Shown: in pieces, positions 28,819 through 44,996 of the stretch
Position numbering within the stretch: position 1 is the stretch's first letter
Layout: the number at the start of each line of letters is the position of its first letter
Origin: Bacteroidales bacterium
GTDB taxonomy: Bacteria > Bacteroidota > Bacteroidia > Bacteroidales > UBA3824
Direction of reading: 5' to 3'
Length of the DNA stretch: 64,000 nt
NCBI GenBank assembly: GCA_016286055.1
Contig: JAEERW010000006.1
Coordinates: 124,001-188,000 of the forward strand
Notes under the pieces: model-generated
What the model was told of the DNA's origin: nothing
Databases searched by the model: none
The model's input: only the letters and a program-made list of their open reading frames with translations
Made by a program: the position numbers and the translations under genes

Positions 28819-30171
28819 TTACAAAAGTCCCGTCATATACAGCGGAAGGAACAAAATGCCGTTTTCTTCTTTCAAGTCAGCGGTATGCACTACGCAAGGC
28901 GAGGTGATGTAACTGTTGTATTTCTCGATACATTTTTTTAGCGAGGAAAGTGTGTAACGTTGAGAGGATTTAACTTCAAGAGGTACAATATTGTGACGGC
29001 TTGTTACCTTGTTTTTGCGGATTAGAAAGTCAATCTCCATACGGTCGTCCTTGTTGTCGATGGAAGGATTTGAATAGAAGTATAGTTTGTGCCCCGACGT
29101 TTTAAGCATTTGTGCGACAATGTTTTCAATAATCATTCCGCTGTTGAATTCAAGTTTGTCGCGGAGAATCTTTTGGTAAATATCAGCGGCAACTATTCCG
29201 TTTTCGTCAAAGGCGTGGCTAATGAGCAACCCTGTGTCCGACATATAGCATTTAAGGGTAACGCGGTCGGTTTTCATCCCCAAACCAATGGAGGGCTCGG
29301 TGGTGTTGTAACAAATATTTACTATTTTGGCATCCGAAAGCCAAAAAAACGAACTCTCGTAGTCCCTGAGCCTTGCGTCTTTTTTTATGTCGGAAAGACG
29401 GAAACGTTTTTCGTGACGTTGCAGTTGTGAAGGAATCTCGTCGAAAAGGCTTATTACCTTGTCGGCGTACACTCCCGCATATTGTGCCGCGCTGTTGCGG
29501 TAAAGTTGAAGTATCTGACGCTTCACCCGGTCGGTTTCCTGAAAATCCTTTGTGGCTATATATTTTCCTACTGCTTGCGGCATTCCGCCTACGATCATAT
29601 ATTGGCGGAAATAGTCCATAGCCTTGCGGTGCATAGATTCCCCCAAAGGCATTTTTTTGTTGAAACGGTCACGGATAAAGTCCATCAGCATTTCGTTGCC
29701 CGACGCCCAAAGAAACTCTTCAAAATCCATTGGAAACATCTCTAACGTTTCTTCTTCGGAAGGTAGCATTATTCCGGCAACACTCTGTTTGATAGATACT
29801 AATGAACCTGTTTCGATATAGTCGTATCTGCCGTCGGCTACCAAGTACTTGATAGCCGCTCTCGCTCTCGGGCAAAACTGAACTTCGTCGAAGATTATCA
29901 GCGACTGCCTTTCATAAAGGGTTACGCCCGTGTAATTGGTCAGGTACATAAACAAGGTGTCCAAATCGCCAAGATAATTGTCGAACAACTGTCGGATGTC
30001 ATCGTTAGCGATGTTGAAATCAATCAGGATAAACGACTTGTATTCGTTGCGGGCAAACTGTTCCACAATAAAACTTTTACCTACTCGTCGTGCTCCTTCG
30101 ATTAGTAGTGCTGTTTCGCCATTTCTATTTTGTTTCCAATCAAGTAGTTGTGTATAAATCTTCCTTTTCAT
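28819..30171 (-). CDS. DUF4143-type AAA ATPase, copy A
   Basis: A 450-residue ATPase of the COG1373/DUF4143 family. Walker A is GARRVGKS (26-33) and Walker B is LIIFDEVQFCPRARAAIKYL, where the DEVQ is family-typical. A mid-region MIVGGMPQAV motif and the C-terminal DUF4143 domain follow, with MEIDFLIRKN and PLEVKSSQRYTLSS resembling a restriction-endonuclease-like core (E-x-D...E-x-K). It is similar to copy C at 38198 in motifs and length, less so to copy B. Biological role unknown. Its promoter region contains a 33-bp tandem repeat. Confidence 0.93.
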   Translation of the reverse strand: MKRKIYTQLLDWKQNRNGETALLIEGARRVGKSFIVEQFARNEYKSFILIDFNIANDDIRQLFDNYLGDLDTLFMYLTNYTGVTLYERQSLIIFDEVQFCPRARAAIKYLVADGRYDYIETGSLVSIKQSVAGIMLPSEEETLEMFPMDFEEFLWASGNEMLMDFIRDRFNKKMPLGESMHRKAMDYFRQYMIVGGMPQAVGKYIATKDFQETDRVKRQILQLYRNSAAQYAGVYADKVISLFDEIPSQLQRHEKRFRLSDIKKDARLRDYESSFFWLSDAKIVNICYNTTEPSIGLGMKTDRVTLKCYMSDTGLLISHAFDENGIVAADIYQKILRDKLEFNSGMIIENIVAQMLKTSGHKLYFYSNPSIDNKDDRMEIDFLIRKNKVTSRHNIVPLEVKSSQRYTLSSLKKCIEKYNSYITSPCVVHTADLKEENGILFLPLYMTGLL

Positions 30172-30174
30172 TTC

Positions 30175-30273
30175 ACGTTTTTGAGATTATTAAACGGTAA
30201 ATTTTACACATTTTCGAGATTATTAAATGGCAAATTTTACACATTTTCGAGATTATCAGTTTGCAAATGTAAG
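30175..30273 (-). repeat. Tandem repeat array A upstream of ATPase copy A
   Basis: Three units with a 33-bp period; the GAGATTAT anchors start at 30183, 30216 and 30249. In the gene direction a unit contains CGAAAATGTGTAAAATTTGC (30230-30249). The most distal unit includes an exact -7 box, TACATTTG (30264-30271). The proximal units lie between this box and the ATG, each with a variant TAAAATTTG/A. Confidence 0.85.
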
Positions 30274-30322
30274 ATTTTTTTCGATTCAAACTCACAAAAA
30301 CTGCAAATTATTAATTTCATCC

Positions 30323-30652
30323 TCAATTGCTCCAATGACCCAATGCCTTGGCATATAAATATATGTACAAATATGTCATAAGAGCGCCAAAGCACGAGGC
30401 CAACAATAGCATATTGTATCCGTCGTCTTGTTGCAAAAAGAAGGCAAGAGCCAACGGCACCACCAACAACACAATTGCTCCGGCAAATGGCCATTCTTTA
30501 AATGTGGTTATCAGTCCAAACAGCCACACTATCGCGCATAATATGGATGAGATATAAAAAAGTATGTCGTAATGGCAGTAATAAGTAAAAATGCCTGTTG
30601 CCGGTGTTGCCCAGGCTAATATAAACAAAAGAATGAATAGTAGTTTTCTCAT
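30323..30652 (-). CDS. Small multi-pass membrane protein
   Basis: A 109-residue hydrophobic protein with about four predicted helices: residues 3-21 (LLFILLFILAWATP), 30-50 (LFYISSILCAIVWLFGLIT), 57-72 (AGAIVLLVVPLALAFFL) and 80-100 (MLLLASCFGALMTYLYIYLY). A conserved-looking QQDDG loop sits before the last helix. No family recognised. It lies between array A and argC on the same strand. Confidence 0.55.
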   Translation of the reverse strand: MRKLLFILLFILAWATPATGIFTYYCHYDILFYISSILCAIVWLFGLITTFKEWPFAGAIVLLVVPLALAFFLQQDDGYNMLLLASCFGALMTYLYIYLYAKALGHWSN

Positions 30653-30746
30653 AATTGTTTCTTTTTTAGTAGATTGGTGGCTGACAAAGGATTGTCATTA
30701 TGTAGAATGCCAAAACATAGAGTGTTTTGTGTTGATAGTGAATAAC

Positions 30747-30783
30747 CAAGGTAGCAGGGGTACTAATTGTACCCCTGCCCTTG
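30747..30783. other. Very stable hairpin downstream of argC
   Basis: GCAGGGGTAC (30754-30763) and GTACCCCTGC (30769-30778) form a perfect 10-bp stem with a 5-nt loop; CAAG/CTTG extend it outside a small internal loop. There is no T run on either strand, so it looks like a 3'-end stabiliser or processing site rather than a classical terminator. Confidence 0.6.
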
Positions 30784-30796
30784 ATTTAAAGACTAT

Positions 30797-31756
30797 CTAA
30801 AATCCCGAAGGTTTCAACCTCAATCCTGCTTTTTCATCTAATCCGAACATAATGTTCATGTTTTCAGTGGCTTGTCCTACTGCGCCTTTGATGAGGTTGT
30901 CGATGACGCTTTGAACAAGGAGTTGGTCGCCTTCTTTCTTGATGGAAACAATGCATTTGTTGGTGTTGACCACTTGTTTGAGATACAGGTTGCCATCGTA
31001 GAAATGCGTGAAGGGCTCGTTTTCGTAGCATTTGCGGTAGATTTCCTTAACCTCGTCTTCGGTTTTGTCGCATGTAAACCAAACACTTGCAATGATTCCA
31101 CGGGCAAAGTCGCCACGGTAGGGAATAAAGTGAATGGGACGCTGCAATGTCGGGTTCAAGAGGTCTTTGGTTTGGTTGATTTCTGCCAAATGCTGATGAG
31201 TGAAGGCCTTATAAACCGAAAAATTGTCGGTGCGCCACGAAAAATGACTTGTGGCGGTGAGTTTTTGACCTGCGCCGGTGCTGCCCGTTACTGCCGACAC
31301 CTGAATGTCGCTCTTGATGATGTCCGCTTTGAGTGCCGGCACAAGCGCCAACTGAATGGCTGTGGCAAAACATCCCGGATTTGCCAACTTATTGCAAGTC
31401 TTGATTTTATCGCGGTTGATTTCGGGCAATCCGTATACAAATCCTGTGTTGCCCACGCGAAACTCGTTGGTCATATCGATGATTTTTACGTCCGAGGGAA
31501 AATTGTATTCCGCAAGGAGTTTGCCCGTTTCGCCGTGAGCCGTGCAGAAGAATACCACGTCGGCTTTTTCGGTGGGTTGCTCGGCAAATTTGAGGTCGGT
31601 GTCGCCAAAAAGGTCGGCGTGAACATCGTAAACAGGTTTTCCAAAATTGCTTCTACTTACTGCCCAAACTATTTGTACATCAGGGTGATAAGTTAAAATT
31701 CTGAGAAGTTCGCCGCCGGTATATCCTGCCGCGCCTATTATGCCTACTTTTATCAT
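30797..31756 (-). CDS. argC: N-acetyl-gamma-glutamyl-phosphate reductase
   Basis: A 319-residue enzyme from the ATG at 31756 (MIKVGIIGAAGYTGGELL); an upstream start at 31783 would add an unlikely lead before the Rossmann fold. It reduces N-acylglutamyl phosphate with NADPH. The catalytic cysteine is in LANPGCFATAIQLALVPAL, and the substrate-binding AVTGSTGAGQKLT and HQHLAEI motifs follow. Length is normal for the short (type 1) ArgC. The gene starts behind a 239-bp AT-rich region with repeated sequences. Confidence 0.95.
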   Translation of the reverse strand: MIKVGIIGAAGYTGGELLRILTYHPDVQIVWAVSRSNFGKPVYDVHADLFGDTDLKFAEQPTEKADVVFFCTAHGETGKLLAEYNFPSDVKIIDMTNEFRVGNTGFVYGLPEINRDKIKTCNKLANPGCFATAIQLALVPALKADIIKSDIQVSAVTGSTGAGQKLTATSHFSWRTDNFSVYKAFTHQHLAEINQTKDLLNPTLQRPIHFIPYRGDFARGIIASVWFTCDKTEDEVKEIYRKCYENEPFTHFYDGNLYLKQVVNTNKCIVSIKKEGDQLLVQSVIDNLIKGAVGQATENMNIMFGLDEKAGLRLKPSGF

Positions 31757-31782
31757 TTGATATATTTTTTTGTGGTTTAACA

Positions 31783-31902
31783 ACGAATTAAACTAATTAA
31801 ACAAATAATTCTTTTGTAAATAAATAACAAATATAATCTTTGATTAAATTTGTTACGAATTAAACTAATACACACTAAATATATTCGTTACATTCGTAAC
31901 AA
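31783..31902 (-). promoter_or_regulatory. argC upstream repeats and -7 box
   Basis: The 239 bp before argC contains the direct repeat ACGAATTAAACTAAT at 31783-31797 and 31855-31869. It also has an inverted repeat, TTGTTACGAAT (31850-31860) with ATTCGTAACAA (31892-31902). An exact -7 box, TATATTTG, is at 31828-31835 on the minus strand, between the two direct repeats. The arrangement suggests operator sites around the argC promoter. Confidence 0.5.
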
Positions 31903-31995
31903 GGAAGTTTTTTTATAAAACTATCTTGTATTATTTTTATTAAAGGTATTCGTGTTTTTTGTTTAATTTGTTGTTAAATACTATAATTAATTATG

Positions 31996-32658
31996 TTATT
32001 TTGCTGTTGGTAATTCGGTGTTGGGAGCGGAGATTTGCGGTTCTTCGGTTTCGCCGTTGATAGTGATAATCACTTGGTAAGCCTTTTCGCCGGTTTGGCT
32101 TTCGGTGAGCGGACAGAGAAGTGTGGTGAGGGTCTTTACTGCCTCGGTGTTGGCCAAGCGGATCATCTTGGCGGTGTCGCAAGTTGCCAAAGCGTGTTTT
32201 TCAGCATCTTGAAGAACCTCTTTCATATCGTTTTTGTTTTCCCAATTGATAAGGTTCTTTTTCTCGTTGATGATTTGGAGACTGTCTGACGGGATGCTGA
32301 GCGACTGCAATGCGGCTGAGGGAAGGTCGATTCTTACCACGTTGGTGTCCACTTTGATGGCGGCTTTCGAGAGGTCAACGGCAAAGGCTATCGTGGCTGA
32401 GTATTTGATTGTGAAACTCTTGGTCGACATTTTGTCGAACCATCCGAATCCTGTGCCGTAGTTTTCTTCGCGGGTGATTTGTCCGGTCAACTGATATTTT
32501 GCTGAGGTTAATTCGCTGCAAGTCATAAGTTTCTCTTTGAGAACCTCTTCGTTGATTACCACTTCTTCCTTAAAGAATTTTCCGATTTGCGACAGGTAGT
32601 AGCAAACGCCGCAGCCGATGATGATACCGAGTATCAAGCCAAATAAAAATTTTTTCAT
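31996..32658 (-). CDS. DUF4230 family membrane-anchored protein
   Basis: A 220-residue protein with one N-terminal helix (FLFGLILGIIIGCGVCYYL) and an extra-cytoplasmic domain. The pattern LMTCSELTSAKYQLTGQI, IKYSATIAFAVDLSKA and a late helix with AEKHALATCDTAKMIRLA matches DUF4230. Function is unknown. The C-terminal tail is Pro/Glu rich and probably disordered. An exact -7 box (TATATTTG, 32692-32699) lies 33 bp upstream. Confidence 0.8.
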   Translation of the reverse strand: MKKFLFGLILGIIIGCGVCYYLSQIGKFFKEEVVINEEVLKEKLMTCSELTSAKYQLTGQITREENYGTGFGWFDKMSTKSFTIKYSATIAFAVDLSKAAIKVDTNVVRIDLPSAALQSLSIPSDSLQIINEKKNLINWENKNDMKEVLQDAEKHALATCDTAKMIRLANTEAVKTLTTLLCPLTESQTGEKAYQVIITINGETEEPQISAPNTELPTAK

Positions 32659-32691
32659 AGTAAATTTAGAGTTTAAAGTTTAACGTTTTTG

Positions 32692-32699
32692 CAAATATA
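32692..32699 (-). promoter_or_regulatory. -7 box of the DUF4230 gene
   Basis: TATATTTG on the minus strand, exact TAnnTTTG; no -33 box seen at the usual distance. Confidence 0.45.
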
Positions 32700-32761
32700 C
32701 AACTATTTTCGATAGACGAGATGTTTTTTTGATTATTTTTTTTAGAGGGGAAATTTGCAAA

Positions 32762-33760
32762 CTATCGTCTTCCTACTTCGCCAACGATAACAATCAGAGG
32801 GGTTTGGTAATTTTGCGAAAGGTTGTTAAGTGTGGTAATGTATTGTTTTTCAGTTGGTTTAGAAACGTTTTCTACAAGCATAACGGGCGTGTCGGTGGCT
32901 AATCCTTTGTTTATTAGCACATTTCGTATTTCGTTGAGATTGCTTGATGCCATATAATATACTAAGGTGGAGGCATTTGGCATTTCTATCTTTTTTGAAT
33001 GTCCGTTGATAAATGCCACGCTCGACGATATTTTTCTTTGTGTAAGAGGTATCCTGAGTGCGGCGGCGGCAGCAAAAGCGGCTGATATTCCGGGCGTTAC
33101 ACCTACATTGATAAAACATCTCTGCAAATATTCAATTTCTTCGCCTGCGTGGGCAAAGAGCATCGGGTCGCCGCCTTTGAGCCTTACCACATTTTTGCCC
33201 TCGCGTGCCGATTTTAAAAGCATATAGTTAATTGCCTGTTGCTCAAAACTATGCTTGCCACTGCGCTTGCCCACATACACTTTTTCGGTTTCAATGGTTT
33301 CGAGATATTCCTTGTTGGTTAAATCATCGTAAAAAATAATGTCGGCATTTTTGATTAACCGTTCGGCTTTGATAGTGAGCAGTTCGGGGTCGCCGGGACC
33401 GAATCCTACCAAATCTACTCTTCCTGATTTGGTGAGAATATTGTTGTCGTCAGCAAATAATTGCTTCAAATCCTCACGGTTACGCTTGACAACAACAGCC
33501 CAAAAGCCTTGCAACGGATTGGTTTCGGATGGTTGAAAAATGTTTTCAAAATCGTGATATAGGGCAATTACCTCAAAATCCGAATGTAAAGGATATGGCA
33601 AGTCTTGCGCCGGAGATATTGCTAAATCGGCTTGATTATCTGTTAGTTGGTGTAAATATGTATCCGAAAACGCAATGCTAAAACTTACACCATTAATATT
33701 GTTGGTAATGGCTTTTAGTTGCAAAGGTTTTAGATTGCTAACTAATTTGCAAGATACCAT
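32762..33760 (-). CDS. cobA: Uroporphyrinogen-III C-methyltransferase with HemC-like N-terminal segment
   Basis: A 332-residue protein that methylates uroporphyrinogen III to precorrin-2 for siroheme. The methylase domain spans about 113-332: VDLVGFGPGDPELLT (115-129), VRLKGGDPMLFAHAGEE and VTPGISAAFAAAAALRIP. The first 110 residues are not part of CobA. They resemble a fragment of porphobilinogen deaminase domain 1 (ADLAISPAQDLPYPL is comparable to the HSxKDLP region) but lack the active Arg cluster and the cofactor Cys domain. It overlaps the upstream dehydrogenase gene by 23 bp, which supports translational coupling. Confidence 0.88.
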   Translation of the reverse strand: MVSCKLVSNLKPLQLKAITNNINGVSFSIAFSDTYLHQLTDNQADLAISPAQDLPYPLHSDFEVIALYHDFENIFQPSETNPLQGFWAVVVKRNREDLKQLFADDNNILTKSGRVDLVGFGPGDPELLTIKAERLIKNADIIFYDDLTNKEYLETIETEKVYVGKRSGKHSFEQQAINYMLLKSAREGKNVVRLKGGDPMLFAHAGEEIEYLQRCFINVGVTPGISAAFAAAAALRIPLTQRKISSSVAFINGHSKKIEMPNASTLVYYMASSNLNEIRNVLINKGLATDTPVMLVENVSKPTEKQYITTLNNLSQNYQTPLIVIVGEVGRR

Positions 33761-34193
33761 TTTCTATTTCCTCTTTTATTTTGTTTCTTACTCTGATACT
33801 GCGTTTTACGTCTTTGGCATCGGACGAAACCGCCACCGAAATAGAGCCTGACGTAAAAATGGCAGGCGATGTAAAATCGCACAAAAAAGGCGAATCGCAA
33901 ACACTTGTAAGTATTCCTCTTTTTTGTGCTAATAGTTTGATTTTGTGGTTTAAACGTCGGTCTTGGGTGCATACATACAGCAGAGTTACACCGTTGAGGT
34001 CGTCTTCTTGAAACTCTTTTTCAATTGTTTTGAAATTTAGAGCCTTAATTTCATTAGAAATTTTTTTGGCAATAACTGTTGCCTTAGATGTAAATCTGCT
34101 GAGTATCTGTGCTTTGTGAGTAGCCACTCTGCCGCCGCCAACAATCAGAATATTTGCCGACGATATTCGTATGTTGATAGGTAAGAAATCCAT
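33738..34193 (-). CDS. Precorrin-2 dehydrogenase/sirohydrochlorin ferrochelatase (CysG N-terminal/Met8 type)
   Basis: A 151-residue protein from the ATG at 34193, two bases after the stop of the sulfite reductase gene. An earlier in-frame start at 34223 would overlap that gene. The Rossmann nucleotide site ILIVGGGRVATHKAQIL is at 16-32. FTSPAIFTSGSISVAVSSDA contains the usual F-x-x-PA and S-GG-like region of the family. It oxidises precorrin-2 with NAD and inserts iron to finish siroheme. At about 150 residues it lacks most of the C-terminal helical dimer part. Confidence 0.9.
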   Translation of the reverse strand: MDFLPINIRISSANILIVGGGRVATHKAQILSRFTSKATVIAKKISNEIKALNFKTIEKEFQEDDLNGVTLLYVCTQDRRLNHKIKLLAQKRGILTSVCDSPFLCDFTSPAIFTSGSISVAVSSDAKDVKRSIRVRNKIKEEIENGILQIS

Positions 34194-34195
34194 TT

Positions 34196-36526
34196 TCAGT
34201 GTTTTTTGATTAATACACGCCAATAAGAGCCAAGATTCTCGGTTTCAAGCACTTCGTGACCTTCAAGACGTACCGAGCCCGGTACGTTTTTGATAGGTTG
34301 ACCATCGTCGAGGAGTATTTCCAAGAGTCCGCCCTGAGGAATAGTTGCAAGCACCACTTTGGTTTTAACAAAGTTCATCGGACAAGCCACACCTCTAAAA
34401 TCGCGTTTTACAACATCATTGTTTCCAGCCACTTGCTGAGTTTTAGCGGGTTCTTCTTTCTTAATGTTATCAATATTTTTGAATTGCAACGAATCGTCCA
34501 TTGATTCGTAAAGTTTGTTGACAGTTGAAACCAACGAATCTATTAAATCTTTGTATTCTAAAAGGGTGGATTTTTGTTTGGCTTTTTCGATAATCGGGAG
34601 ATATTTTTGAGACACCAAACCGGCTTTAATAAACAGATTTTCAAAGTTTTCGTAAACTTCCTTGTCGGTTCTCGGGTCGGCACCGCGCGTAACCAAAAGC
34701 ATTCTTGATGCCGAAAATACAATTTCGTTGAGCAATTTTTCTTTGTTGGTTTCGCTATTCAGATATTCTTTTTGTTTGTCCTTAATTGTCTGTTGGTCAA
34801 GTTCTATGATATCAAACAAGCCGGCAGAACATTCTGCCTGCGACGACCTTGAAAGTGAGAACAACGCTTTTGCACCCCAATCAAAATAGTAGTTTTTATC
34901 ATCCTCAAATTCAGGAACTTCGGCAAAACTTGACAAGATTTCTTTTACAGTTTTAGCACCGTTTTTTATTACAAAATCGTTGTAATCTTTGAAATTTGCT
35001 TTTTGCGAAATGTATTTCGCAAAAAACTTTTCAACAAATTCGGGAATATCTTTTGCTGACAGAAACCCTTGGTTTTCAGCCAATTCTTTGTTTCCCGAAG
35101 TTCTCAGCCAAATATTGTATGCGGGATAGGGATAGTCGCCTTTGCGACCAATGCGTCCGCTGAAACCGAGATCCGACCACGCACTTTGAGCGCACGAGTT
35201 GGGGCAGCCGTTTATATTGATTTTTATTGCCGGTATTTCATCAAGTTTTAGTTTGCTGTTTTTCAAGCGTTTGGCAATTGCTTTTTCTAAACCTTTGGGC
35301 AAGCATATACCCAAACGGCAAGTGTCGGCACCTGTGCAAGATACTATATTATTGATAGTTACAGGCAAATCAAGTTCAAACCCAAGATTTTTGAAAAATT
35401 CATATATATTGCCCAAATACTCTTCTTTGATATTCCTTATCTGAATGTTTTGGCGTGGGGTAAAGCGGATAACATCTTGTCCAAAATTATCTAAAAAATC
35501 TGCTATTTTTTCAAAAGTATTGTTGCTAATATTGCCGTTTACCACAGGAATTATCACCGAAAAAAGGTTTGATTCTACGTTGGTTTGTTTTTTAGCGTAA
35601 CGGTTTTTCCAAATTTTAAACTCTTTGCTGGTATTATTAATCGGCTCAAAATCAGGAGTTTTGTACGAAATGTTTAAGACTGCGGGTTCAAAATCCAAAG
35701 ATTTGTCGTCTTTGAGTTGGTTAAACTCTTCGTAAAAAAGTTTAAGAGTATCTTCTTCGCCGTTTTTGTAAAAAATATAGCGTATACGTGCTTTGTAGCG
35801 GTTTTTTCGGTTTCCATTGAGGTTGAAAAAGTTTTTTGCAGCCTTAGCCGCTCTAAACAAGTCTTTTTCGTTTAAAAAATCAAATGCCACCCAACCTTTG
35901 TGCGGATTAGAAGCCACGCTGCCACCCAATAAAACTTTGAATCCTCGTTGGTTGTTTTGAATTTTTGGTATAAAACCCAAATCTGCAACTAACGCAAAAT
36001 CAGCGTCTTGTTCGTTGATATCGAATGCAATTTTTAATTTTCTGGGCATCGACCACGAATCTTTTTCGGCAATGAGTCGCGAAGTAAGTTCTACGGCGTA
36101 AGGGTACACGTCGAACACTTCTGTGCTGCTAATTCCGCTTTTTTCGTTCACAAGCATATTTCTGATAGTGTTTCCGCCTCCGCCTTGGGTCGAAAGTTCA
36201 GCATCTTTGAGAGTGTTTAAACTTGGGGTGATGTCGTCGAGCGCAACATCGTGAATTTGAATCTCTTGACGAGTGGTGATGTGTATATGCGAAGCATTGA
36301 TGTTTTGAGCCACTTTTGATGCCTCTCTTAGTTGCTGAGGAGTAATCAAACCACCTACACAGCGCACTCTGAGCATATATCTGCCGTCTTGACGTTGCTC
36401 GTACACGCCCATAGGCACGCGGTTGGCTTTGAGTTGCGCACCGCTGATTTCTCCCTTCTTGAATTTTTCGATAAGTTGCTGATTATAATTGATATCAGCC
36501 TGCAAAGTTTGCGATAATCTATACAT
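34196..36526 (-). CDS. Siroheme sulfite/nitrite reductase fused to a TusA domain
   Basis: A 776-residue protein from the ATG at 36526 (MYRLSQTLQ); a longer frame reaches 36658 but crosses the -7 box. Residues 1-560 form a NirA/CysI-like reductase with two ferredoxin-like half-domains. The 4Fe-4S/siroheme cysteines are Cys397, Cys403 (SCTGADTC), Cys441 and Cys445 (NGCPNSC), the complete C-x5-C, C-x3-C set. A helical, HEPN-like segment follows at about 600-690, then a TusA sulfur-carrier domain (708-776) with its cysteine at 715 (VACPMNFVKTK). It would reduce sulfite to sulfide, possibly with sulfur relay to the TusA part. The siroheme genes follow directly. Confidence 0.9.
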   Translation of the reverse strand: MYRLSQTLQADINYNQQLIEKFKKGEISGAQLKANRVPMGVYEQRQDGRYMLRVRCVGGLITPQQLREASKVAQNINASHIHITTRQEIQIHDVALDDITPSLNTLKDAELSTQGGGGNTIRNMLVNEKSGISSTEVFDVYPYAVELTSRLIAEKDSWSMPRKLKIAFDINEQDADFALVADLGFIPKIQNNQRGFKVLLGGSVASNPHKGWVAFDFLNEKDLFRAAKAAKNFFNLNGNRKNRYKARIRYIFYKNGEEDTLKLFYEEFNQLKDDKSLDFEPAVLNISYKTPDFEPINNTSKEFKIWKNRYAKKQTNVESNLFSVIIPVVNGNISNNTFEKIADFLDNFGQDVIRFTPRQNIQIRNIKEEYLGNIYEFFKNLGFELDLPVTINNIVSCTGADTCRLGICLPKGLEKAIAKRLKNSKLKLDEIPAIKININGCPNSCAQSAWSDLGFSGRIGRKGDYPYPAYNIWLRTSGNKELAENQGFLSAKDIPEFVEKFFAKYISQKANFKDYNDFVIKNGAKTVKEILSSFAEVPEFEDDKNYYFDWGAKALFSLSRSSQAECSAGLFDIIELDQQTIKDKQKEYLNSETNKEKLLNEIVFSASRMLLVTRGADPRTDKEVYENFENLFIKAGLVSQKYLPIIEKAKQKSTLLEYKDLIDSLVSTVNKLYESMDDSLQFKNIDNIKKEEPAKTQQVAGNNDVVKRDFRGVACPMNFVKTKVVLATIPQGGLLEILLDDGQPIKNVPGSVRLEGHEVLETENLGSYWRVLIKKH

Positions 36527-36552
36527 CTTTCGTTTAATTAATGGTTCGGGTG

Positions 36553-36560
36553 CAAAGATA
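36553..36560 (-). promoter_or_regulatory. -7 box of the sulfite reductase operon
   Basis: TATCTTTG on the minus strand, an exact TAnnTTTG, 26 bp before the ATG at 36526. The 324-bp gene-free stretch 36527-36850 holds this promoter and, on the other side, repeat array B. Confidence 0.55.
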
Positions 36561-36706
36561 TGGAATGTAGTAATATATTCTATAATTAAGCACAAAATAT
36601 AGATAATATTTCTATTTTTCGTTTCTAAGTAGAATAAACATCTTTTTAAACGACGCAATTATCTTGGATTTAGAAATGTTTTATAAAGTGATACCAAACC
36701 GCCATT

Positions 36707-36834
36707 CCCCCGAAAAAGTGTAAATTTTCTTCAACATTCCCCCGAAAAAGTGTAATTTTTTTCGATTATTCCCCCGAAAAAGTGTATTTATTTTTGATTA
36801 TTCCCCCGAAAAAGTGTAAATTTGCAATTAGAAT
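36707..36834 (+). repeat. Tandem repeat array B upstream of ATPase copy B
   Basis: Four units with an exact 32-bp period, starting at 36707, 36739, 36771 and 36803. Each begins CCCCCGAAAAAGTGTA, which is invariant; the second half of the unit varies. The last unit supplies the -7 box of the ATPase gene and the third supplies its -33 box. Confidence 0.92.
36793..36824 (+). promoter_or_regulatory. Promoter of ATPase copy B, embedded in the repeats
   Basis: TTTG (36793-36796), 20 bp, TAAATTTG (36817-36824): full consensus. The spacer contains the CCCCCGAAAAAGTG core of the fourth repeat. A protein bound to the core would therefore sit between the two boxes. Confidence 0.8.
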
Positions 36835-36850
36835 ATTCAATGTAATCGCT

Positions 36851-38155
36851 ATGAAAAGGTTTATATACAACAACTTAGTAAAATGGAAGAATAAAACTGA
36901 CCGCAAGCCGCTTATTTTGTTGGGCGCAAGGCAAGTGGGCAAGACTTATATTATTAAGAATTTTGGCAAAAAGGAGTTTAAAAACTTTGTTTACGTCAAT
37001 TGCCATCAAAACGAGTTCACCAACAATCTGTTTCATAATTTAATGGTAGAACGGATAGTTACTGAGATAGAAAGGTTTTACGATGTTAAGATTGTATGCG
37101 GCGAAACTCTATTGGTATTTGACGAAATTCAGGAAGCGCACAACGGAATTGCCTCGTTGAAGTATTTTTGTGAGGATATGCCCAACCTTCACGTTGTAGC
37201 CGCCGGTTCGCTCTTGGGAATTTCGCTTCGCAGCGATGAATCGTACCCTGTGGGCAAGGTGGAGACTCTAAAAATGTATCCGATGAGTTTTTCGGAATTT
37301 CTTATGGCGAAAGGTCGGCAAGGACTTGTGGATGTGCTTGACGAATTGGCGTGGGATTCAATGAAATCTATGAACGAAGAATATACTGAGTTGCTCCGTC
37401 AGTATTATTTTACAGGCGGAATGCCCGAAGTGGTAAAAACTTACATTGCCACTGGCGACACCTCTGCCACGCGAAAAGTTCAGCAAGATATTCTTGACGC
37501 ATACCAACGTGATTTTGCCAAGCATACCAAATCGCAGGCCGAAAATATCCGCCGTATTTGGAACAATATTCCCGCTCAATTGGCGCGTGAAAACAAGAAA
37601 TTTATATTTGGTGCGGTAACCAAAGGGGCGAGGGCTTCCACTTATGAGGAGGCAATTCAATGGCTTGTGGATGCCGGCTTGGTTTACAAAGTGGACCGTG
37701 TGCGCGATCCCTCTATGCCGCTGAAATTTTATGCCGATTCGTCCGCTTTTAAACTTTTTGTGCTCGACTGCGGACTTCTGGCGTGTATGAGTGAGGCTAA
37801 TCCTAATGCTATGTTGCTGGGTAGTAACGCTTTTATTGAGTTTAAAGGCTCTTTTACTGAAAATTATGTGCTTCAACAATTGAAGGCTTCGGGCTACCAA
37901 TCTGTGTTTTATTATTCAAAAGAAAAATCAACAATGGAGATAGATTTCTTGTACCAAACCTTAGAACGCATTGTCCCCGTTGAAGTTAAAGCCGAAGAAA
38001 ACGTTAAAAGCAAATCGCTCTCCTCCTTTGTAAACTACGAATTTCAGGAGAGGAATTTTAAGGCAGTTAGGTTTTCGATGCGTCCATACATCGACCAAGA
38101 TTGGATGGAGAACGTGCCACTGTATGCAGTGGAGAGTTTTGGACGGAGGAGATGA
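36851..38155 (+). CDS. DUF4143-type AAA ATPase, copy B
   Basis: A 434-residue ATPase from the ATG at 36851; an in-frame start at 36782 lies inside the repeat array and upstream of the -7 box, so it is rejected. Walker A is GARQVGKT (25-32) and Walker B is LLVFDEIQEAHNGIASLKYF. The mid-region YFTGGMPEVVKTYI and C-terminal EIDFLYQTLERIVPVEVKAEEN are family features. It differs from copies A and C in the Walker B tail and belongs to another branch (HQNEF and GSLLGISLR motifs). Role unknown. Its promoter is built into array B. Confidence 0.93.
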   Translation: MKRFIYNNLVKWKNKTDRKPLILLGARQVGKTYIIKNFGKKEFKNFVYVNCHQNEFTNNLFHNLMVERIVTEIERFYDVKIVCGETLLVFDEIQEAHNGIASLKYFCEDMPNLHVVAAGSLLGISLRSDESYPVGKVETLKMYPMSFSEFLMAKGRQGLVDVLDELAWDSMKSMNEEYTELLRQYYFTGGMPEVVKTYIATGDTSATRKVQQDILDAYQRDFAKHTKSQAENIRRIWNNIPAQLARENKKFIFGAVTKGARASTYEEAIQWLVDAGLVYKVDRVRDPSMPLKFYADSSAFKLFVLDCGLLACMSEANPNAMLLGSNAFIEFKGSFTENYVLQQLKASGYQSVFYYSKEKSTMEIDFLYQTLERIVPVEVKAEENVKSKSLSSFVNYEFQERNFKAVRFSMRPYIDQDWMENVPLYAVESFGRRR

Positions 38156-38197
38156 ATTCTAAATAGTGTTTTATCCCCCCGACAGAAATAATCAATC

Positions 38198-39535
38198 TTA
38201 TATAAACATCGTCATATACGCCGGAAGCAATGTTGTTTGACCATCGCGCTTGAAGTCTTTGGTATAAATCAGATACCTTTTGTCCACTATGTGCGAAAAC
38301 TTTTCACAAAAGGCGTCGAGCGATTTGTGAGAGTTGTAGCCAGAGGATTTCACTTCAATGGGGTAAAGTTTGGCTCCCCGTGAAAGCAAAAAGTCGATTT
38401 CGTAGTTGTGTGTGTCATCCTTAGCCCAAGTGTAATAAAAAAGTTTGTTGCCCGTGGCGGTGAGCGTCTGGGCAATCATATTTTCGTAAATGTAGCCAAG
38501 GTTGGTGTTGAGTTTGTCGTTCAAAAGTTTCTGATATATAATGTTGTCGGTATGGTCTTTGTCCCAAAAGGCAAGCGTTACAAATAGTCCCGTATCGGCG
38601 CAGAAAATTTTGTATTTTGTAATGTCTTTGGTTAGCGACATACCAACATTTGGGTCATTGGAATGGTACGAAAAAAGTGTCGTCTTGCTGTCTTCGAGGT
38701 TTTTGAGCAATTCTGTCAACTTGTTTTCGTCCACATCGCCGAGCACAGCATACGGTTTGTAGCGGTTGTTGTTTTGGCTCAATTGCGATGGAATTTCCAT
38801 AAACAGCGTCTCTAATCGTCCTGACGAGTCTAATTTTTGAAAATCGTCCTGATAAATTTTTATGATTCCGCGCTTAGCAAGGTCAACCATACTGAAATTG
38901 TTGGTTTCGAGATATGTGTTGACAGCCTGAGGCATTCCGCCAATGAGCATATAAAGCCTGAAATCGCGCATTTTTTCGCGGTGCGCCATATTGAGCGGCA
39001 ACTTTTGGTCGTAAAAAGTCCGTAGCAATGGAACGGTTGCTGTATCGTCCAACGCCCACCTAAATTCCTCATAATCCATTGGATACAGCGTTATGCGCTC
39101 CTCCTCGCTTGGAATGGTTATGTCTTTGGTATTCTTTTTAATGCTTATGAGCGAACCTGTTTCGATATAGTCGTACCTTCCGTCTTTAACAAGGTATTTT
39201 ATAGCCTGACGTGCCTTAGGGCAGTTTTGCACCTCGTCGAAAATGATAACCGATTTCCGCTCTTGTAACACAACATTGTAGATTGATTGTAGTTGCAAGA
39301 AAATGAAATCTTTGTTCATTAGGTTGTTGAACAGGGCTTTAACCTCGTCGGTTGCCTCAATGAAATCTATCAAAATGTATGATTCATACTCGTTTTTGGC
39401 AAATTGTTCCACAAGTGTTGATTTGCCCACGCGCCTTGCACCTTCAATCAGCATCGCTGTTTTGCCGTTTTGAATGTGTTTCCATTCAAGAAGTCTGTCG
39501 TATAGTTTGCGTTTGAATATCCGTTCCATAATCAT
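38198..39535 (-). CDS. DUF4143-type AAA ATPase, copy C
   Basis: A 445-residue ATPase; starts at 39535 or 39529 (MERIFKRKL) are both possible. Walker A is GARRVGKS (32-39) and Walker B is VIIFDEVQNCPKARQAIKYL. MLIGGMPQAVNTYL and the C-terminal YEIDFLLSRGAKLYPIEVKS match copy A closely. It is convergent with copy B, 42 bp apart, so two ATPases of different branches stand tail to tail. Its upstream region contains a 33-bp tandem repeat unlike that of copy A. Confidence 0.93.
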   Translation of the reverse strand: MIMERIFKRKLYDRLLEWKHIQNGKTAMLIEGARRVGKSTLVEQFAKNEYESYILIDFIEATDEVKALFNNLMNKDFIFLQLQSIYNVVLQERKSVIIFDEVQNCPKARQAIKYLVKDGRYDYIETGSLISIKKNTKDITIPSEEERITLYPMDYEEFRWALDDTATVPLLRTFYDQKLPLNMAHREKMRDFRLYMLIGGMPQAVNTYLETNNFSMVDLAKRGIIKIYQDDFQKLDSSGRLETLFMEIPSQLSQNNNRYKPYAVLGDVDENKLTELLKNLEDSKTTLFSYHSNDPNVGMSLTKDITKYKIFCADTGLFVTLAFWDKDHTDNIIYQKLLNDKLNTNLGYIYENMIAQTLTATGNKLFYYTWAKDDTHNYEIDFLLSRGAKLYPIEVKSSGYNSHKSLDAFCEKFSHIVDKRYLIYTKDFKRDGQTTLLPAYMTMFI

Positions 39536-39557
39536 TATTTTGATGTTGTAACGGATG

Positions 39558-39588
39558 CAAAAATAGTGCTTTTATTACATTTACCAAA
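39558..39588 (-). promoter_or_regulatory. Promoter of ATPase copy C
   Basis: On the minus strand TTTG (39585-39588), 19 bp, TATTTTTG (39558-39565): full consensus, 22-28 bp before the candidate starts. The -33 box is part of the first unit of array C. Confidence 0.75.
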
Positions 39589-39700
39589 ATGTTTTTGCCA
39601 AAAATATCCAAAAATACCAAAATGTTTTTGCCCAAAACCTCCAAAAATACCGAAATGTTTTTACCCAAAACCTCCAAAAATACCAAAATGTTTATCATTG
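39583..39700 (-). repeat. Tandem repeat array C upstream of ATPase copy C
   Basis: Three full units and one partial unit with an exact 33-bp period; the ACCAAAATG or ACCGAAATG anchors start at 39583, 39616, 39649 and 39682. In the gene direction a unit includes GGTATTTTTGGAGGTTTTGG, which itself contains TATTTTTG, a -7-like octamer. The sequence is unlike arrays A and B. The array also lies upstream of the divergent SAP gene. Confidence 0.9.
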
Positions 39701-43715: not shown

Positions 43716-43731
43716 AAAATTTGGAATTTTG

Positions 43732-43830
43732 GATTTCTTATTTTACTTTTACGCCGGAAAGTAAAATAACGCGATTTCTTATTTTACTTTTACGCCGGAA
43801 AGTAAAATAACGGATTTTTTATTTTACTTT
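43732..43830 (+). repeat. Repeated palindromes upstream of the Fic gene
   Basis: Units of 41 and 40 bp start at 43732 and 43773, with a partial unit at 43813-43830. Each full unit holds a perfect inverted repeat, TTATTTTACTTT and AAAGTAAAATAA, around TACGCCGG. The third unit has only the left arm. The array ends about 30 bp before the Fic ATG at 43860, so it covers the promoter area. Confidence 0.9.
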
Positions 43831-43859
43831 TTGAACATAACGGATAAAATAGAAATGAT

Positions 43860-44996
43860 ATGGATATTGCGAATTTTTTACCGGGACATTACGAAGAAAA
43901 CTGCGGATACAAATACTTTGTGCCCGAAAAGGTTAACACCGAATGGAGTTGTACTCTACCTGAGATAAACACACTTTTAGAAAAGGCGGCTATCAAACTT
44001 GGCGAGTTGAATTCTTTTTCGCGGCTTGTGCCTAATATCGACCTGTTTATACAGATGCACGTGGCAAAAGAGGCTGTGATTTCGAGCCGCATAGAGGGAA
44101 CACGCACCCAAATCGACGAGGCTCTTATGCCTGTGGAGGAAATTGCCGAAGAACGCCGCAACGATTGGAAAGAGGTAAACAATTATATATCAGCCCTTAA
44201 TGCAGCCATATTGCAGTTAGAAACGTTACCAATTTCAAGCAGATTGATTCGTAACACACACCACATATTATTAGAAGGTGTAAGGGGAAATTATAAAATG
44301 CCCGGAGAATTTCGCACAAGTCAGAATTGGATTGGCGGAGCAAGTCTTGCCGATGCACGGTATATTCCGCCTCACCACTCTTTGCTCAACGACCTTATGG
44401 GCGATTTAGAAAACTTTATTAACAGCGATGGCGGAATCCCCGACCTCATTAAAATTGCTATAATTCATTATCAGTTTGAGACAATCCATCCATTCCTTGA
44501 TGGCAACGGACGTATCGGACGTTTGTTGATAACGCTCTATCTTGTAAGTAAAGGTATTTTGCAAAAACCGTTATTGTATCTTTCTGAGTTTTTTGAACAG
44601 CACAAAAGTCTTTATTATCAGAATCTTGCCGATGTAAAACAGCAAGGCGCAATGGCTCAATGGATAAAGTTTTTTCTTGTTGGCGTTCAACAGACTGCAA
44701 CTGTGGCAGTGGAAACGCTGTCGAAGGTGTTAAAATTCAAGGACGAAACCGAAAATCTCATCCGCAGTAATTTTGGCCGTCGCTCATCTTCGGCTATAAC
44801 ATTGTTTCACAGTTTGTTGCAAAATCCCACTGTAAGCATAGAGCAAGTTATCAACATCTGTGACGTAAGTTACAAATCTGCCAACGATTTGGTAAAAGAC
44901 TTTGTTCAATTCAACATCCTCACCGAAACCACCGGCAAAAACCGCAACAGATTTTTTAGGATGGAAAGGTATTTGGAGGTGTTTAGTGAGAGGTAG
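43860..44996 (+). CDS. Fic-family protein with inhibitory helix
   Basis: A 378-residue, probably AMPylating enzyme. The Fic motif HPFLDGNGRIGR (210-221) is complete, with the catalytic His210. SSRIEG (75-80) fits the (S/T)xxxE(G/N) inhibitory motif, placed N-terminal to the Fic core, as in self-inhibited class II Fic proteins. A C-terminal winged-helix-like region (about 310-375, VSIEQVINICDVSYKSANDLV) may bind DNA. No antitoxin gene is adjacent. Substrate unknown. The gene is preceded by repeated palindromes that could be its own operator. Confidence 0.93.
   Translation: MDIANFLPGHYEENCGYKYFVPEKVNTEWSCTLPEINTLLEKAAIKLGELNSFSRLVPNIDLFIQMHVAKEAVISSRIEGTRTQIDEALMPVEEIAEERRNDWKEVNNYISALNAAILQLETLPISSRLIRNTHHILLEGVRGNYKMPGEFRTSQNWIGGASLADARYIPPHHSLLNDLMGDLENFINSDGGIPDLIKIAIIHYQFETIHPFLDGNGRIGRLLITLYLVSKGILQKPLLYLSEFFEQHKSLYYQNLADVKQQGAMAQWIKFFLVGVQQTATVAVETLSKVLKFKDETENLIRSNFGRRSSSAITLFHSLLQNPTVSIEQVINICDVSYKSANDLVKDFVQFNILTETTGKNRNRFFRMERYLEVFSER

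Follow-up and report, generated by a model that had tools for sequence, protein, structure and literature searches.

Gene-specific, operator-like tandem arrays upstream of DUF4143 AAA ATPases in a Bacteroidales genome and its relatives

A 64,000-nucleotide stretch of a Bacteroidales bacterium (GenBank assembly GCA_016286055.1, contig JAEERW010000006.1, positions 124,001 to 188,000; the whole stretch is called the window here) carries three genes for DUF4143 AAA ATPases, copies A, B and C, each preceded by its own array of short direct repeats, which raises the question of what the arrays do and which protein reads them. On the strength of comparative sequence analysis, we consider it probable that each ATPase, which also has a nuclease-like domain, represses its own gene by binding a tandem operator that is private to it. 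A preliminary description of the window had reported three tandem arrays with periods of 33, 32 and 33 bp directly upstream of the ATPases, and Tandem Repeats Finder (TRF) recovered all three where they had been placed. Array A (30174..30256, minus strand) holds 2.5 copies of a 33-bp unit with 92% match, plus a degenerate distal unit extending to about 30280, and lies upstream of ATPase A (28819..30171, minus strand). Array B (36703..36823, plus strand; also recovered as a motif chain) holds 3.8 copies of 32 bp with 84% match ahead of ATPase B (36851..38155, plus strand), and consists of four operator units CCCCCGAAAAAGTGTA at 36707, 36739, 36771 and 36803 with a spacing of 32. Array C (39582..39693, minus strand) holds 3.4 copies of 33 bp with 92% match ahead of ATPase C (38198..39535, minus strand), which lies tail to tail with ATPase B; its units AAACATTT... 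begin, on the minus strand, at 39594, 39627, 39660 and 39693.

For a uniform measure we used a lag score, the self-similarity at lags of 15-60 bp in the region from -250 bp to +20 bp of each gene start, with cut-offs of at least 15 and at least 18; among dinucleotide shuffles (n=1600) the 99th percentile was 15 and the maximum 21. Arrays A (period 33, spanning -109..+1 from the ATG), B and C scored 49, 66 and 67, respectively, and thus exceed chance. Within 284 kb of the same genome, an array of 20-60 bp period with a TRF score of at least 80 at most 200 bp upstream was found for 5 of 232 genes: the three ATPases, a SAP gene that shares the intergenic space of array C, and a Fic gene.

The arrays are far more widespread than the three window genes. 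The window's own genome (G000, 4.18 Mb; G004-G010 denote relatives and L numbers extracted loci) has 40 matches to DUF4143 (PF13635), 34 of them above the family cut-off, and 37 of the 40 have an array at the lower cut-off and 36 at the higher one. The periods of the 37 were 32-33 bp in 32 cases, 23 bp in two and 51-53 bp in three; the genes below 15 were L001, L019 (cut by the contig end) and L030 (start unclear). As controls from the same genome, DUF1016_N genes had arrays in 0 of 11 cases (a twelfth is without upstream DNA) and Fic genes in 3 of 10, one of the three being of the ATPase type. Among 20 relatives of the same genus and order, we kept 113 distinct family genes for which 200 bp or more of upstream DNA was present (omitting 4 where it was too short, 7 fragments and 1 duplicate). 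Of the 113, 77 scored at least 18, compared with 18 of 546 other genes (Fisher p 1.9e-54), from which 35 genes whose upstream DNA overlaps that of a family gene had been excluded (of these 35, 21 reach 18). The preliminary description had named a lack of 32-33 bp repeat enrichment, relative to other genes, as the outcome that would refute it; enrichment was found. Some of the 18 scoring background genes bear real arrays of other families, and shuffles of the relatives' upstream regions reach 18 in 0.44% of 2260 cases. Periods of the 77 were 20-23 bp (12), 32-34 bp (62) and 53 bp (3), with none besides.

Wider samples concern the branch of copy B: because the order-level and named loci are best matches to ATPase B, their rates hold for that branch and not for DUF4143 as a whole. 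The order-level set of 90 genes came from a draw of 393 genomes plus four genes from a phylum-level search (29 loci given and 60 more among the matches listed, with 3 of 93 dropped, L327, L347 and L365); 60 of the 90 pass at 18, 58 of these with a period of 32-33 bp. For named genomes (1 of 80 loci, L264, dropped), 34 of 42 Bacteroidota-labelled loci pass versus 15 of 37 others, the phylum labels being taken from record titles and two 'uncultured bacterium' records being placed by guess. The earlier claim that every such ATPase has an array is therefore nearly correct in the window's own genome (36 of 40), and fails for the family, which includes seemingly array-less subfamilies. Proteins of these subfamilies, with starts such as MLINR and MYYREL (L001, L051, L055, L058; L054, L057, L059), have top DUF4143 scores and no tandem array; in L001 a long inverted repeat is seen by eye in its place. 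At the other extreme, the arrays of L085, L154 and L118 are expanded: over the 250 bp scanned, their unit numbers are about 8.2, 8.7 and 5.9.

With ATPase B as the reference protein for motif and covariation work, the units of the copy B branch showed a 20-bp motif, TTC-n6-AAAAnTGTA, in which a common anchor, AAAAnTGT, accompanies an address of 6-9 bp that is alike within a locus and differs between loci. Agreement at address positions 4-9 was 0.70-0.81 within loci and 0.31-0.37 between them; at anchor positions 10-13 and 15-17 it was 0.85-1.00 in both comparisons, although the sites were chosen with the motif itself, which favours a constant anchor and not the within/between contrast of the address. 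The core that arrays A and B had been said to share is real and corresponds to this anchor (with one deviation in copy A, by eye), and array C had correctly been called unrelated: the copy C branch has a similar design with a different anchor, AnATTT (12 genes, one without convincing sites). When the motif was trained on 42 Bacteroidota loci, it detected sites paired at a distance of 31-34 bp in 13 of the 37 non-Bacteroidota loci (none in 185 shuffles), and reverse training on non-Bacteroidota loci found phased pairs in 26 of 42 Bacteroidota loci (0 of 210 shuffles); phased or single sites occurred in loci titled Lachnospira, Treponema, Haemophilus, Actinobacillus and Fibrobacter. Phased chains were present in 145 of 322 family genes (a set that includes four pairs with the same protein C-terminus), in 0 of 322 shuffles and in 0 of 514 other genes, and five alternative spacing ranges gave chains in 0-19 of the 322. 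The 145 chains had two boxes in 35 cases, three in 67, four in 39 and more in 4. Within the window's own genome the units are mostly gene-specific, 23 of 630 array pairs having a unit in common. By its sequence, then, the unit of the copy B branch is operator-like. A CRISPR array was considered and rejected, since the units are contiguous at 32-33 bp without long spacers and 141 of 145 chains have 2-4 boxes.

The position of the units relative to the promoter points to transcription. Bacteroidota promoters have a -7 box, TANNTTTG, and in 72 of 125 Bacteroidota arrays its first base coincides with operator position 17, compared with 0 of 125 when the sites were slid by 5-28 bp; where the register fits, the box-bearing unit is mostly the last or second-last. 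Array B is of this kind, with a -7-like box, TAAATTTG (36817..36824, plus strand), superimposed on its last unit in the same register. In array C, the -7-like box TATTTTTG occurs inside the array after three of the four unit starts, and a further such box lies 16 bp downstream of the array (39558..39565, minus strand). The -7-like box of ATPase A, TACATTTG (30264..30271, minus strand), is at the distal end of its array, so that in copy A, as in a G008 gene, the box comes before the array. The promoter-box account of the preliminary description was thus upheld for all three copies. Its gene-specific operators are strongly supported at the level of sequence, by the private unit of each locus, the covariation with the protein described below and the fixed register on the -7 box. 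A protein bound to a unit that lies on the -7 box should compete with RNA polymerase, which would amount to repression.

Tandem units in a promoter could instead form a contingency locus, in which slippage alters the unit number and switches expression by phase variation, as the suggestion of a repeat-length switch had implied. Among ortholog-like pairs (at least 80% protein identity and a TRF value on both sides) the unit number does differ by about 1 or more in 6 of 19, one pair fitted at doubled period being still counted, with 3.0 versus 3.9 units at 98% identity and 3.0 versus 5.7 at 83% as examples, and it can reach about 9. The other pairs differ little, however, the units have diverged within arrays, three boxes are the most frequent number (67 of 145 chains), and both the spacing and the promoter phase are conserved. 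The data demonstrate no switch, and we regard phase variation as most improbable.

Operator and protein vary together. Over 110 arrays of the relatives (3 of the 113 being omitted; 5995 pairs), unit similarity tracked protein identity with a Mantel r of 0.49, against a maximum of 0.06 in 500 permutations. A unit was common to 25, 50, 95 and 96% of pairs at 50-60, 60-70, 70-80 and above 80% protein identity, whereas the flank just upstream of the array was common to 0, 0, 0 and 33% in the same bins; since the unit and not the flank is shared at equal identity, gene and array are inherited together, with the array as the border of similarity. These data bear on another explanation, namely that the arrays are read by some different regulator of the host and the ATPase gene is just its target, for which the Fic genes with repeats speak. 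A single host regulator would be expected to give a single motif, yet within a single genome the units vary by locus, in step with the protein encoded next to them, phyla far apart that have the ATPase in common also show the anchor, and the address association is concentrated in one protein segment; we consider this explanation very unlikely. Paralogs in one genome showed no evidence of avoiding each other beyond their divergence: at equal protein identity, same-genome pairs share units as often as cross-genome pairs (28% of 29 versus 25% of 124 at 0.5-0.6 identity, and 50% of 10 versus 50% of 32 at 0.6-0.7), and selection for orthogonality was rejected.

We located the part of the protein that follows the address by covariation in 140 genes of the copy B branch (the 145 with chains, less identical proteins and those shorter than 380 aa). 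With overall identity controlled, address similarity was associated with protein windows 343-366 and 370-405, all other windows giving at most 0.09. The peak window, 379-393 (leading windows 376-399), reached a partial r of 0.25 versus a permuted maximum of 0.12 (all windows, 60 permutations); because permuting genes leaves phylogeny in, the internal control is the flat profile of the other windows. In 100 of 100 gene bootstraps the peak fell inside 340-406, and both halves of the data were concordant. The associated windows surround D365 and E378-x-K380, so that in the window the codons for residues 343-400 of ATPase B (37877..38050, plus strand) mark a PD-(D/E)XK segment that is address-associated. 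The middle, winged-helix-like part, initially expected to read the address, was not supported as its reader, with a window r of -0.10 to 0.03. At single positions, two pairs stood out against 500-permutation maxima. Where residue 386 is Lys, base 1 is T in 47 of 49 cases, and where it is Gln, base 1 is a different one in 19 of 23 (P < 0.002); where residue 359 is Asn, base 8 is A in 25 of 30 cases, and where it is Lys, base 8 is G in 22 of 29 (P = 0.004). In a pair picked afterwards, Lys at residue 388 accompanies T at base 2 in 97 of 120 cases, and any other residue there accompanies A in 16 of 20. Together these associations suggest that the nuclease-like domain is probably the reader of the address.

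What kind of protein would this be? ATPases A, B and C each contain AAA_14 and DUF4143 and match the PDC-S01 models of PADLOC over nearly their full length (E 2.9e-112, 5e-173 and 1.5e-94, respectively). PDC-S01 is a predicted single-gene defence family, an unvalidated PADLOC phage defence candidate; PMC12988326 ranks it fourth in frequency among the defences of prokaryotes, describes it as a fusion of an ATPase with a PD-(D/E)XK member, and gives validation as pending for most such candidates. PMC13356809 describes it as very frequent in rumen genomes. The promoter array is the feature added here: the portion of PMC12988326 that was available mentions none in its account of PDC-S01, and in the open-access literature searched, where one paper names DUF4143, we found no account of these arrays. 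The AlphaFold2 model of ATPase B has a mean predicted local distance difference test score (pLDDT) of 87.6, and its middle part resembles a winged helix there, with a helix at 262-274 and strands at 278-284 and 295-304. The nearest solved folds are two archaeal ATPases, SSO1545 and PABY2304 (2FNA, 2QEN; template-modelling (TM) score 0.44-0.55), only 14-15% identical to it; lower matches included Avs3 and Orc1/Cdc6 bound to origin DNA (2V1U, 2QBY), the latter distant, with Foldseek TM-scores of 0.26-0.31. The nuclease domain modelled alone was poor (mean pLDDT 61.5), and all its PDB matches had E >0.02, many of them known nucleases; an alignment profile had no match among PDB sequences. Among the 140 aligned copy B branch genes, K31, D91 and E92 (Walker A/B) and E378 were present in all, and D365 and K380 in 139.

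Orc1/Cdc6 proteins, the initiators of archaea and eukaryotes, bind repeated boxes near their own gene and are not known to have a nuclease domain. Although ATPase B is like them in its distant fold, the window ATPases differ in having the extra nuclease-like domain (DUF4143, with conserved D..ExK) and a private address for each paralog, and in that their arrays lie on promoters; one genome has 40 dispersed matches. In toxin-antitoxin modules and with the controller proteins of restriction-modification systems, a DNA-binding product controls its own promoter through repeated operators. The proposed self-control by a DNA-binding product, with gene and operators moving as a unit, resembles these systems; the ATPases differ in their family-wide 33-bp phasing and in an address seemingly read by the nuclease-like domain. 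A type II toxin-antitoxin module in the strict sense was rejected, since each window copy is a single gene with its own array and no partner was recognised among the eight neighbours scanned. By Pfam scan these eight proteins are metabolic, a DUF4230 protein or an acetyltransferase.

The conserved catalytic residues invite another reading: the array would mainly serve the nuclease, as a place for nicking or homing, or for copying or maintaining a selfish gene, comparable to iterons or origin boxes, and its part in regulation would come second. Their retention in 139-140 of 140 copy B branch genes, the distant likeness to Orc1/Cdc6, the joint occurrence of array and gene in unrelated flanks, relatives on 61 plasmid records and arrays without a gene all favour it. 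The register of the -7 box indicates transcription instead, no target duplication, integrase or excision product was seen, and the 11 viral stretches described below are mostly unconvincing; we therefore judge a nuclease site unlikely as the chief function.

For self-repression, the preferred reading, we propose the following. A DUF4143 AAA ATPase, made of the AAA part, the middle part and the PD-(D/E)XK nuclease-like domain, would bind its own array, in which most often three boxes lie on the same side of the DNA helix (33 bp being about three turns); the nuclease-like domain would read the address and the middle part may read the anchor, for which the evidence is weak. As the array overlaps the promoter, the bound protein would keep its own transcription low until infection, ATP state or titration of the protein released the repression. 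A number of observations weigh against this account. Scores below 18 were found for 36 of 113 genes of the relatives and 30 of 90 order-level genes, and the MLINR and MYYREL subfamilies, as described above, seem to be without arrays. A reverse-strand chain occurred in 46 of 322 genes, so that units can be partly palindromic. A Pfam scan finds no winged helix in A, B or C, and between the middle domain and the anchor the windows show a weak link, the mutual information of single pairs none. For the address, only two residue-base pairs (K386-DNA 1 and K359-DNA 8) pass the permutation maximum, 6 of the top 20 pairs fall in residues 340-400 versus 2.7 expected (p 0.04), Arg359 goes without a clear base (G in 11, A in 9 and T in 8 of 29), and one pair of proteins at 88% identity has no common best unit. 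The other branches are weak (r of 0.14 for nuclease windows, 0.13 for the middle domain and 0.12 for AAA; 83 genes, 528 pairs), and they keep the D in 83 of 83 and the E in 80 of 83 genes and the Lys in only 74 of 83. Finally, an active nuclease would have to spare its own promoter.

A bolder version, which we put forward tentatively, is that DUF4143 is a PD-(D/E)XK domain that reads sequence by a diversifying code and PDC-S01 a family of self-addressed ATPase-nucleases, in which this one domain would name the address and could also cut DNA that carries it. The code proposed as part of it would pair residue 386 with base 1, residue 388 with bases 2-3 and residue 359 with base 8 (Asn-A, Lys-G); each address might then be written about three times in the gene's own promoter, with thousands of natural protein-operator pairs. 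Were the nuclease-like domain indeed to read the address, the family would be a large natural set of DNA-recognition pairs. A private operator for each copy also offers a handle on what a PDC-S01 protein binds, would allow its trigger to be measured with a promoter reporter, and is a possible reason why tens of paralogs coexist in one genome.

The preliminary description had further suggested a mobile or expanding gene class. This is partly supported by the 40 matches, by arrays inherited with their genes in unrelated flanks, by relatives on plasmids (homologs of ATPase B occur on 61 plasmid records, besides 13 unannotated phage records) and by the place of copy A, which sits between genes read as argD and argC (Pfam domains concordant). 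In the genus member G009 no ATPase gene separates argC from argD, which are 30 bp apart; three order-level relatives have the two genes as neighbours as well, at 13-200 bp. On the other side, no recombinase was recognised beside the window copies, no transposition machinery was recognised and no target duplication was mapped. The remaining genus members offer no clean empty site at the place of copy A: in G010 it is occupied by two different genes, argD of G008 lies 13 kb away, and elsewhere in the genus argD is beyond the stretch examined. At the place of copies B and C, G004 has two near-identical array B units, about 50 bp with a weak likeness to where gene B starts, and the outer part of array C. 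SAP and argG come next, and over 7.2 kb there is no family gene; judged from the sequence, this site is best read as a loss of both genes with their arrays partly left. The corresponding gap in G008 holds a different array-bearing ATPase. Across the 20 relatives, the sulphite-reductase flank of copy B (DNA of the gene start) had just two matches, chance-like and about 40 bases long, which leaves the G004 site as the only informative one for copy B. In the window itself, tetrapyrrole-methylase and sulphite-reductase genes (32762-36526) stand between the DUF4230 gene and array B, inside the arg region, and in G006 argC appears as two overlapping matches (L179:9302-10232), like a frameshift or an assembly error.

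Two arrays were found on their own: L045:4643-4728 is 95% identical to the array of a G008 ATPase, with no family gene in 20 kb, and L191:687-758, upstream of a Fic-model gene, is 97% identical to the L013 array, with no family gene on the stretch examined. Phage genomes were also considered as target or decoy. Array B had no match in 50,697 phage records, and the pattern of three phased anchors occurred in 11 stretches of viral contigs, none with a family gene on the sequence examined; by eye L391 resembles a real array, L395 and L392/L398 are possible, and most are unconvincing, so there is no support for a phage-target model. The anchors at L392:1058-1130 and L398:3786-3858 lie about 150 bp upstream of an open reading frame of 308-310 aa, which in L392 has no Pfam match.

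Similar layouts accompany other families. Among PF01637 ATPases of the window's own genome (L404-L418), 51-54 bp arrays precede 10 of 15 matches above the cut-off, L405 and L409 being also among the 40 PF13635 matches; as the layout recurs in these ATPases at a period near 52 bp, the principle may extend to a wider class. A 33-bp array of 2.1 copies (L040:5434-5501) adjoins the 3' end of one PF01637 ATPase gene, and no gene obviously starts beside it. The Fic gene of the window (43860-44996; PADLOC SoFic) has its own upstream array at 43731-43831, with 2.5 copies of 41 bp, and a second Fic gene of the same genome (L187) likewise has a 41-bp period, about four helical turns.

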